Assembly (NCBI RefSeq): GCF_002221525.1
Contig: NZ_CP011028.1
Span: forward strand, 2,243,001 to 2,307,000
DNA: 64,000 nt
From: Pseudoalteromonas espejiana DSM 9414
Lineage (GTDB): Bacteria; Pseudomonadota; Gammaproteobacteria; Enterobacterales; Alteromonadaceae
Direction: 5' to 3'
The translations under genes and the position numbers were made by a program. This document shows positions 7,520-38,195 of the stretch, piece by piece (the stretch's first letter is position 1; the number at the start of each line of letters is the position of its first letter). The notes beneath the pieces were generated by a model. The model had not been told where the DNA came from. It made no database searches and saw only the letters and a list, made by a program, of their open reading frames with translations.

Positions 7520-7598
7520 TTAGTCTCCTTTCGCGGTATTTTAACCGCTAAAAAACAAGAAGAACTTGGCAAAGGAATGCATTTGATGTGTCCGCTGC

Positions 7599-7761
7599 CA
7601 GAAGCTCTCCACCTATATTGGTGACAGTTTTGAGGATTCAGCCCCATAAACCGAAAAACAATAGCGACGTACTAGTATTTTTCTCGGCGAGTACTTCCCT
7701 CTTTAATGGTTACGGGCGTTCGTCACCTACCATTAAATACCTAAGTATCGCACCTCTTCTG
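7599..7761 (-). promoter_or_regulatory. Lysine riboswitch (L box) upstream of lysC
   Basis: Read on the minus strand, the leader shows the conserved L-box core in order: AGAGGTGCG, GAGGGAAGTACTCGCCGA, GGGGCTGAATCCTCA, CTGTCACCAATATAGGTGG and GAGCTTCTGG. Helix P1 pairs CAGAAG (7756-7761) with CTTCTG (7599-7604). The ~163-nt aptamer is the usual size and lies about 80 bases from the lysC start. No U-run terminator lies between the aptamer and the start codon. TTCCTTT (7571-7577) could pair with the AAAGGAG ribosome-binding site, so control is probably of translation initiation. The aptamer call rests on motif recognition; the switching mechanism is inference. Confidence 0.93.
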
Positions 7762-7783
7762 AATGCTTTATTAACCATTGGCT

Positions 7784-14672: not shown

Positions 14673-14887
14673 TAAATACGAGCTACGCTCGTCACGTCAG
14701 CAAGCTGCACGTCTACAAAAACACCGTGTTAAACGTTATCGGTAGTCGCTAAGCTTGCTTGTGCGAGAAGCGTAGCTTCTAACTACTTATCTTTATGTAC
14801 TTACCTTCACTTTAAATTACGAGCTACGCTCGTCACGCCAGCAAGCTACACGTCTACGAAAAACACCGTGTTAAACGTTATCGGTAG
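14673..14887. repeat. Family 2 hairpin repeat array, left part
   Basis: One full 141-bp unit and the first half of a second, each beginning ACGAGCTACGCTCGT (14678 and 14819). Each unit has a left arm AGCAAGCT..ACGTCTAC and a right arm GTAG.CGCTAAGCTTGCT forming a stem-loop, then a GAAGCGTAGCTTC hairpin. The second unit is cut after CGGTAG at 14887 by the IS110 element and continues at 16094. The scaffold resembles family 1 (CAAGCAAGCTT with CGTCTAC/GTAG arms), so the two families are probably related. Confidence 0.85.
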
Positions 14888-14921
14888 ATACCATCTCTCA
14901 TTTTAAGCTTCAAGGTCGTAT

Positions 14922-15905
14922 TTAACTTTCTTGGAGCTTAAACGCTTCTTGGTTTTTTATTACACCAAAACATATATGAATAAGCTTTCGCATATTTGCA
15001 CACACAGCTTGCATCGGTGTTTTACCGTTATTTATTAATGTTAACTTGTGTCGTTTTATTCTTTTATTCCATTGCCCAGCGACAATGGCTGCCATGTAGA
15101 GTTTACAGCGAATTCTGGCTGGCCCAAGTTTACTGATTGATGTTCGCCCTTTTAATTTACCCGATTCATTGTGACGTGGGATTAATCCACAATAAGCTGC
15201 TGCTTCTTTGGCTTTATTAAATTTTTTAGCCGCAAACAAATATGTCAACTCTCTCGATAATACAGGCCCAATGCCAGGGATAGACTCAAGTAGTTTCCTG
15301 TTTCTTTTCAAACCAGGCTCATTATCTATGTGATCATCAATGTCAGATTTAAGCTGTTTAATTTCGTCATCTAAAAACGCGATAGTCACTTTTATCGATT
15401 GGCGAACACGTGCTGAAACGTTGCTGAATTCACTTGCTTCTAATCGGTTAGCTTCTCGTTGTCGGTTACTCTCAAGCGCATCTAAACGACGGACAAGGGC
15501 TTTAAGCTCTCTAACTTCTAACGCTTCAGGTTGCCAATAATCAACGACTGCGTGCTTTGCACTGCCGTAGTGGGCAAGCATCGTTGCATCAGATTTGTCT
15601 GTTTTATGAATTATGTTTAACGCGTCTGCATACTTTTTAGCTTTGCCTGTATTCGCTAAAATAATATTAAAGCCTTGCTCGTGTAAAAAATACATCAGTG
15701 CTTCATGATAAACACCCGTTGGTTCGAGGGTGATAACGAGCTCACTAGCAGCTCTTTTAGTTGTATTTAAAAGCCACTTTTCTATTGCTAAAAAGTCTTG
15801 GCGCTTGTTTTTAAATACTTTTGTTTTAATTTTGTTTGTAAGTTGGTCTCTCAACCACGATAAATCAATCTTCTCTTTACTAATATCAATGCCGATAAAC
15901 ATCAT
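14922..15905 (-). CDS. IS110-family bridge-RNA-guided transposase
   Basis: A 327-aa DEDD recombinase. The N-terminal RuvC-like domain has D7 (FIGIDIS), E61 (TLEPTGVYH), D103 and D106 (KTDKSDA). A coiled-coil linker spans about 130-195. The C-terminal transposase-20 domain runs from LLESIPGIGPVLSRELTYL (205-223) through AAAYCGLIPRHNESG to GRTSISKLGPARIR (253-266), which holds the serine block used for strand exchange in this family. Length and residue spacing match IS621 (326 aa). ATG at 15905 follows GAGGAG. The ribosome-binding site lies just after the predicted donor loop of the bridge RNA, so RNA folding and translation may affect each other. Confidence 0.93.
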   Translation of the reverse strand: MMFIGIDISKEKIDLSWLRDQLTNKIKTKVFKNKRQDFLAIEKWLLNTTKRAASELVITLEPTGVYHEALMYFLHEQGFNIILANTGKAKKYADALNIIHKTDKSDATMLAHYGSAKHAVVDYWQPEALEVRELKALVRRLDALESNRQREANRLEASEFSNVSARVRQSIKVTIAFLDDEIKQLKSDIDDHIDNEPGLKRNRKLLESIPGIGPVLSRELTYLFAAKKFNKAKEAAAYCGLIPRHNESGKLKGRTSISKLGPARIRCKLYMAAIVAGQWNKRIKRHKLTLINNGKTPMQAVCANMRKLIHICFGVIKNQEAFKLQES

Positions 15906-15914
15906 CTCTACTTA

Positions 15915-16078
15915 CTCCTCTTGTACATACAGCATCTACTTATATAAAAGTGTGCTTGGATACCATTCAGTTTGTGAGAATAGAAAGTCAGGGCTTTATC
16001 TACCGAGCAGTATAAAATACTAGGCGCTGAGGCAAGCTCACTGACTTCGATGTGATAAATGATAGCTAACCACTTATC
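15915..16078 (-). ncRNA. Predicted bridge RNA of the IS110 element
   Basis: The non-coding left end folds into two internal loops, in the order known for IS621. Target loop: AGCGCCTA (plus 16021-16028) equals the insertion-site half AGCGC plus core CT plus A. TCGGTAG (plus 16000-16006) is complementary to the other half, CTACCGA. They flank an AGTAT-AAA-ATACT hairpin (16009-16021) and are closed by GCTT/AAGC and GTCAG/CTGAC stems. Donor loop: ATGGTATC (plus 15959-15966) equals the element's right terminus plus core. TACAAG (plus 15920-15925) is complementary to the left terminus CTTGTA. An AGCA/TGCT plus ACTT/AAGT stem (15931-15956) lies between. RNA ends are approximate. Confidence 0.85.
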
Positions 16079-16093
16079 AATGAGAGATACAAG

Positions 16094-16216
16094 GCGCTAA
16101 GCTTGCTTGCGCGAGAAGCGCAGCTTCTAATTACTTATCTCTATGTACTTATTTTCACTTTAAATTACGAGCTTCGCTCGTCTCGTCAGCAGCTGTACGT
16201 CTACAAAAACACCGCG
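16094..16216. repeat. Family 2 hairpin repeat array, right part
   Basis: The second half of the interrupted unit (GCGCTAAGCTTGCTTGCGCG, GAAGCGCAGCTTC hairpin) is followed by the first half of a third unit starting near 16167 and ending by 16216, just before the msrA stop codon. It is the continuation of the array left of the insertion sequence. Confidence 0.82.
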
Positions 16217-37827: not shown

Positions 37828-37971
37828 CATTATATTCCAAATAAAAATAAATAGATTCAGGACACTGAAAGGCATGGTAATACAACACAAATGTACACTT
37901 GTGTTTTATTATCAATAAACAAGCTTAAAACACGCAGCCAAAAGACACGTATTTGCATACGCTAAAGCTAT

Positions 37972-38149
37972 ATTCTCTTTCATCCGGACTATAACCGTCG
38001 GCTCTGGCATCTCACCAGATCTGCTTGACCTTTATTTAGTGCTTTTAGGTAACCTAAATGGCATAAACAAAGCGCTCGCGGGCTCATTTTATTCAAACCT
38101 GTTGATTAAAACATACCGCCGGTGGGGAATTTCGCCCCGCCCTGAGAAT
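37972..38149 (-). promoter_or_regulatory. FMN riboswitch (RFN element) upstream of ribB
   Basis: On the minus strand the conserved RFN blocks appear in order: ATTCTCAGGGCGGGG, CCCCACCGGCGGTA, GCCCGCGAGCGC, GGTCAAGCAGATCTGGTG, GATGCCAGAGCCGACGG and TATAGTCCGGATG, closing with AAAGAGAAT. Helix P1 pairs ATTCTC (38144-38149) with GAGAAT (37972-37977). This is the aptamer that represses riboflavin genes when FMN is plentiful. In the 145-base spacer to ribB I see a small AACACAA/TTGTGTT hairpin but no convincing U-run terminator. Confidence 0.95.
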
Positions 38150-38151
38150 TT

Positions 38152-38195
38152 ATACCAATCCGCGTAATTAAGTGATCAATTTTGAGGATTGGTAT
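38152..38195. repeat. Short dispersed hairpin repeat (family 3), copy 1
   Basis: A 44-base element with ten-base arms ATACCAATCC / GGATTGGTAT around GTAATTAAGTGATCAATTTTG. A second copy, with the same spacer pattern, lies at 39440-39487. It abuts the 5' end of the FMN riboswitch. Confidence 0.8.

Follow-up and report, generated by a model that had tools for sequence, protein, structure and literature searches.

An IS110-group element in a REP-like repeat of Pseudoalteromonas espejiana with a natural A at a handshake position of its bridge RNA

Insertion sequences of the IS110 group carry a long non-coding left end and a short right one, an arrangement that is reversed in the IS1111 group (PMC11208160). 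In IS621 of Escherichia coli (PMC11208160, PMC11208158), the left end holds a bridge RNA made up, in this order, of a 5′ stem-loop, a target-binding loop and a donor-binding loop, strands are exchanged at a CT core, and a promoter is rebuilt across the joined ends of the element (PMC11208160). As reported for the same system, four bases pair in the right target guide and, after strand exchange, the two bases that follow the right donor guide, 166 and 167, take target bases 7 and 6, respectively, as partners (PMC11208158). Covariation at these handshake positions across hundreds of orthologues was reported in that work, to which we therefore credit the handshake rule. A second solved recombinase is that of ISCro4 (PDB 9t56), an element likened here by its recombinase alone. 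Specific insertion into REP sequences has also been described for ISPpu9, ISPpu10 and ISPa11 (PMC1525189; PMC11187229), the last of which belongs to the IS1111 group (PMC11187229). These sources had already described bridge RNAs, insertion into REP sequences and the handshake rule (PMC11208160, PMC11208158, PMC11187229, PMC1525189); what is new here is an individual element, its REP target and a natural A at position 166. Among the literature matches listed, no title or abstract opening mentions natural handshake variants of single elements.

The element lies in a stretch of 64,000 nucleotides of the marine bacterium P. espejiana DSM 9414, hereafter the window, whose coordinates are used throughout. 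It resembles IS621 (PMC11208160, PMC11208158) in the domains and catalytic residues of its recombinase, in the location of the bridge RNA and the order of its parts, in the CT core, in a REP foot ending in CTAC as target, in the A and U at handshake positions 81-82, in a discontiguous right donor guide and, putatively, in a promoter across the joined ends. The target guide encodes AGCGCCT, whereas that of IS621 encodes ATCGGGCCT (PMC11208160); the right-guide match is longer than in IS621, and the handshake bases differ, with A instead of G at 166 and G instead of U at 167.

The element, its recombinase and its insertion site

14888..16093, minus strand: IS110-group element, 1206 bp with one CT core (16092-16093) counted
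14886-14887: second copy of the CT core, beside the right end
14922..15905, minus strand: recombinase of 327 aa, with the DEDD residues D7, E61, D103 and D106, and Ser248 in NESG
16094..16128, no strand assigned: REP-like hairpin with the target at its foot; 14876-14887 holds the second half of the split site

The recombinase, which is of full length, combines the DEDD RuvC-like and Transposase_20 domains (Pfam PF01548, DEDD_Tnp_IS110, and PF02371) with a catalytic serine, as expected for the IS110 group, and exceeds the cut-off of NF033542, the NCBIfam model of IS110 RNA-guided transposases. It matches the solved chains of IS621 (E 1.7e-42) and ISCro4 (E 9.8e-42), and D7, E61, D103, D106 and Ser248 align with D11, E60, D102, D105 and S241 of IS621, whose catalytic roles are taken from PMC11208158. 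Residues 134-246 also show a sub-threshold match to the TIGR-Tas endonuclease model (30.3 bits, cut-off 100). Comparison with the recombinase of the near sister L050 gave a dN of 0.016 and a dS of 0.237 (dN/dS about 0.07), values by which the protein is under purifying selection since its split from the sisters, so that this line of elements was probably functional until recently.

The non-coding ends measure 188 nt upstream of the gene (15906-16093) and 34 nt downstream of the stop codon (14888-14921), which is the long left and short right arrangement of the IS110 group. Membership in the IS1111 group, whose elements have their bridge or seek RNA at the right and carry inverted repeats of 7-17 bp in a subterminal position, was considered and rejected, the RNA being upstream of the gene and only 5 bp (GAGAT/ATCTC) being repeated around the joined ends.

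The element sits between the two CT copies inside a REP-like repeat. Its left junction reads TTAGCGC-CT at 16092-16100 and continues inside with TGTATCTC, and its right end runs as GAGATGGTAT down to 14888, followed by the core CT and then ACCGA. As target, the element occupies the foot of the REP-like hairpin, CTAC. The repeat is a Pseudoalteromonas one with the tail AGCAAGCTNNNCGNCTAC, in contrast to those of ISPpu9, ISPpu10 and ISPa11; this pattern has 143 matches in the genome with at most two mismatches (66 forward, 77 reverse) against 2 for the reversed control, and 46 of the tails are exact. Seven exact tails cluster at 354-1152 (genome 2243354-2244152), mostly in alternating orientation, as a BIME-like array. 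Two Y1_Tnp genes were found in the same genome, and a pattern scan of their two 3.3 kb loci gave no such REP tail; a link between REP-associated transposases and the targeted repeats was dropped. An exact empty site in another species was not found: in the related genomes L064-L067, with both flanking anchors, the element is absent between the anchors and the intergenic stretches differ from that of the window, and in L068 the left anchor is missing. An uninterrupted paralogous copy of the repeat at about 14739-14779, some 140 bp from the element and with A instead of C at target base 7, was used in place of the cross-species empty site. Elsewhere in the window, Rfam models detect a lysine riboswitch (7594-7766, minus strand, RF00168, 90.4 bits) and an FMN riboswitch (37968-38153, minus strand, RF00050, 110.7 bits).

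Guides and structure of the bridge RNA

15906..16093, minus strand: left end (LE), with the bridge RNA
16053..16080, minus strand: 5′ stem-loop (helix 2)
15984..16048, minus strand: target-binding loop, with outer stem, left guide, inner hairpin and right guide (helices 3 and 4)
16022..16030, minus strand: left target guide TCAGCGCCT
16000..16006, minus strand: right target guide TCGGTAG
15959..15966, minus strand: left donor guide ATGGTATC
15930..15957, minus strand: inner hairpin of the donor-binding loop (helix 5)
15920..15928, minus strand: right donor guide ATGTACAAG, equivalent to IS621 157-165 (numbering from PMC11208158)

A preliminary description of this DNA had read an IS110-group element with a bispecific bridge RNA from four guide words in a given order and polarity, and all four are indeed exact on the minus strand, starting at 16028 (AGCGCCT), 16006 (TCGGTAG), 15966 (the left donor guide) and 15925 (TACAAG). 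The left target guide agrees with the flank TTAGCGC plus the core CT at 8 of 9 bases, 7 of them contiguous, and the right one with CTACCGA at 7 of 7, followed by AT at 15998-15999 as in IS621 81-82. On the donor side, the left guide is identical to the right terminus as far as the core C and the right guide pairs discontiguously with CTTGTAT. As in IS621, the guides of the two loops can base-pair with either strand of target and donor, the core being part of the match, and the claim that they agree with the site now occupied and with the termini of the element stands; the weak part is the right-guide match beyond CTAC, where close relatives often match little.

Dinucleotide shuffling of the left end (20,000 times) produced two of the four words in 16 cases and three in none. 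These words had been picked after the fact, which makes the swapping of guides and flanks among relatives the stronger test. With a single copy in its own genome (4.5 Mb, two contigs), which the recombinase protein matches once, the element was compared instead with relatives from other genomes, gathered by protein first and then by a covariance model from 14 left ends; this model was built because an Rfam scan at gathering thresholds gave no family at the left-end locus. The model matches the window at 15911-16049 with 141 bits, the window being itself one of the 14 rows. At E 1e-4, matches were obtained in 9 of 108 genomes of the genus, 14 of 369 of the class and 13 of 394 of the order, with the window's own genome counted each time.

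Taking for own and swapped flanks alike the best of five registers, the left guides of 29 elements gave 239 matches with their own flanks, against a permuted mean of 144.9 and a maximum of 179, and none of 100,000 permutations reached the observed value; the own flank was best or tied in 26 of the 29 rows. The 15 elements that had been found by the RNA model, without using flanks, behaved likewise (129 matches; permuted mean 79.1, maximum 108; 0/100,000). For the right guide, the 21 elements with a usable right flank gave a score that no permutation out of 100,000 reached, with 593 (first set, n=12) and 98 (model-found, n=9) doing so in the subsets. An earlier test of right-guide covariation on the first set had been reached by 1,274 of 200,000 permutations, and by 13,812 of 200,000 without L061. 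This right-guide signal comes mostly from distant elements such as L175 (CTATTCA), L172 (CTGATT) and L179 (CTGACCC); the right flanks of close relatives share little past CTAC, in line with the four-base pairing of IS621.

The samples were defined as follows. The swap test omits L181, whose boundary is unclear, and L185, a near copy of L180, which leaves 15 of the 17 class matches other than the window's own. Rows were dropped from the genus search (L160, L161 and L168, decayed or of unclear boundary; L164, at a contig end) and from the order search (L193 and L194, decayed or lacking a left boundary), as was L057, whose RNA is cut. In the first right-guide test only, use was made of the right flanks of L011, with CC as its right core, and of L013, whose right end lies on a different contig; eight more elements with an unusable or unlocated right end or flank, L170, L177, L180, L182, L183 and L184 included, are omitted from the right-guide swap test. 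Copies with the same RNA were counted once (L043, L045, L047, L049, L010, L062, L155, L199, L200, L202, L203, L204).

Guides and targets can also be followed between close relatives. Of the 188 left-end positions, 8 to 12 differ between the window and each of four near sisters, among them left-guide positions 65-67 in three sisters and 65-66 in the fourth. The guide of the window has a score of 8 against its own site and of 6 against those of L050 and L013. In one single genome, L180 and L183 have near-identical bridge RNAs in which left guide and target have changed in step (AGCCAAC and AACCGAC). Other relatives show peculiarities of their own: the Gayadomonas element (L011/L062) has a right core CC instead of CT, and L168 and L194, together with L160 and L193, form a clade of decayed-looking bridge RNAs whose left guides are of a CCAC-GU or CCAC-AU type and in which the core or the boundary may differ from CT; L168 and L194 combine a U at the handshake position with a left guide ending in CCAC-GU.

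With regard to structure, five helices covary over the 14 sequences, with changes on both sides in 24 of 35 pairs and 94.8% of the cells paired. Both-side changes affect 8 of 10 pairs in the 5′ stem-loop, 7 of 13 and 3 of 4 in helices 3 and 4 of the target-binding loop, and 5 of 7 in the donor-loop inner hairpin, where 99% of the cells are paired. None of 500 shuffles reached any of the five measures used, and slid versions paired 31-55% of the cells, a control that leans towards the structure, which was derived from the same alignment. A conserved 5′ stem-loop and loop stems emerge in this way from covariation, with the donor-loop outer stem left out of the count. Folded on its own, the left end of the window was equalled by 24 of 200 shuffles (z -1.17) and, in a second run, by 84 of 200 (z -0.17), and its minimum-energy fold in the latter is without the donor-loop outer stem, which is found in the fold of L050. 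A stable two-loop fold, asked for in the preliminary description, is supported by covariation over 14 relatives; single-sequence folding, not clearly better than that of shuffles, does not bear it out. This folding result and the lack of an Rfam family at the locus are what could be said for chance word matches without any bridge RNA, an explanation that the swap tests speak strongly against, as do covariation and the independent matches of the model, and to which we give hardly any credence.

The handshake base

15919 (LE position 175), minus strand: handshake-guide base equivalent to IS621 166, A in the window

At this position the seven near sisters tabulated (L050, L051, L052, L013, L205, L206, L207) carry G. 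The A of the window forms a mismatch with the C at target base 7 and a pair with the T at donor base 7. It thereby departs from what is known of IS621, where efficient exchange calls for a base 166 that is complementary to target base 7 but not to its donor counterpart (PMC11208158), a requirement that does not decide membership. Among 40 tabulated elements, base 166 and target base 7 form a Watson-Crick pair in 37, mostly G:C, L061 and L173 having a compensated C:G pair and L172 an A:T one; 59 of 100,000 permutations reached 37, a figure that ignores the relatedness of the elements. In this table, the modelled RNA of L205, which sits at a different insertion site, is identical to that of L050, and L198 and L201 are one base apart. 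Besides the A:C of the window, the exceptions are a G:T wobble in L192a and a G:G in L196, whose left guide also mispairs at target base 7, and these two indicate that the rule is not absolute. Donor base 7 is known for 27 elements, and among these only the window and L172 show an A:T pair between base 166 and that base; L172 has T at both target and donor base 7, and keeps the same A:T pair before and after exchange.

Handshake letters were checked against the DNA, and the A of the window rests on one assembly, without reads. An assembly error at 15919 in an element of the ordinary G type would fit such a single base and the G of the seven sisters, but the assembly consists of 2 contigs with a completeness of 100, and six other left-end positions likewise differ from all four sisters compared, so that we regard such an error as very improbable.

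Proposed mechanism and its meaning

14908..14913, minus strand: -35-like box TTGAAG in the right end, at a spacing of 17 from TATCTT across the joined ends

Once the element is excised as a circle, a promoter for the bridge RNA would arise at its joined ends, as suggested by the presence of TATCTT at the joined ends and a -35-like box at a spacing of 17 in the 7 elements scored. The target-binding loop would then pair with AGCGC-CT-ACCGA at the foot of the REP-like hairpin and the donor-binding loop with the joined ends of the element itself, and the DEDD/Ser recombinase would exchange strands at the CT core, as it is known to do in IS621. The handshake A would find no partner in target C7 after the exchange and a possible one in donor T7 before it. 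With such unfavourable pairing, strand exchange is probably hampered and the element held at its present site. On balance, we favour as likely an IS621-like element whose guides fit and whose handshake A probably impairs strand exchange, so that it stays put; comparison of sequences shows its family, guides, structure and base change, and we infer transcription, activity and the block.

The preliminary description had expected the element to be active, an expectation that is not supported in view of the handshake A, the single copy and the guide-matched REP tails left unoccupied. Ten of the 46 exact tails fit the guide of the window at 8 or 9 of 9 bases, one of them perfectly, and all ten are unoccupied, as follows from a search that retrieves intact tails. 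Taken together, the single copy, the free sites that match the guide and the altered handshake base, each weak alone, suggest an element that no longer spreads, and the single copy may have other causes than the handshake block. A fully active element, with a recombinase that tolerates the handshake A and a single copy due to recent arrival or tight regulation, would agree with the intact frame, the low dN/dS, the fully matched right target guide and the natural A166 with donor T7 of L172. Against it, the seven near sisters keep G, the window mispairs its own target base 7, unlike L172, and the change G166A in IS621 "dramatically reduced" recombination in E. coli, an effect ascribed to pairing with donor T7, whereas G166C and G166U still recombined (PMC11208158). 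We consider full activity rather unlikely, if clearly the most serious of the alternatives.

The same base can be looked at from the side of the repeats, since T is the commoner target base 7 in this genome (26 of the 46 exact tails, CGTCTAC, versus 19 with C and 1 with A). A handshake A on its way to retargeting to such T7 tails would find parallels in L172, which pairs A166 with target T7, and in the sister left ends whose guide reads T there (L013, L161 and L164). The left ends of L161 and L164 have T at target base 7 in both guide and flank (ACGTCT and GCGTCT), and lack the 3′ parts of the donor loop. The left guide of the window, however, still has C at base 7, matching its C7 site, and A166 pairs also with the window's own donor T7, which makes a step of this kind on its own highly doubtful. 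The bolder idea that one handshake base locks a guide-matched bridge RNA and turns a REP-targeting element into a settled one, whether through decay once inserted or on the way to T7-type REP targets, is put forward as a speculation with a small chance of being right. Were this general, IS110 elements would possess in their handshake bases a natural switch for activity (on/off) and for retargeting.

The bridge-RNA mechanism being known, the locus provides a test in the wild of the handshake bases, its least explored part. Nature has apparently made the engineered change of IS621, with guides and protein looking intact and with near sisters as controls. The 40-element table adds natural support for the handshake rule through its compensated C:G and A:T pairs, and guides and targets change in concert, L180 and L183 doing so inside a single genome.
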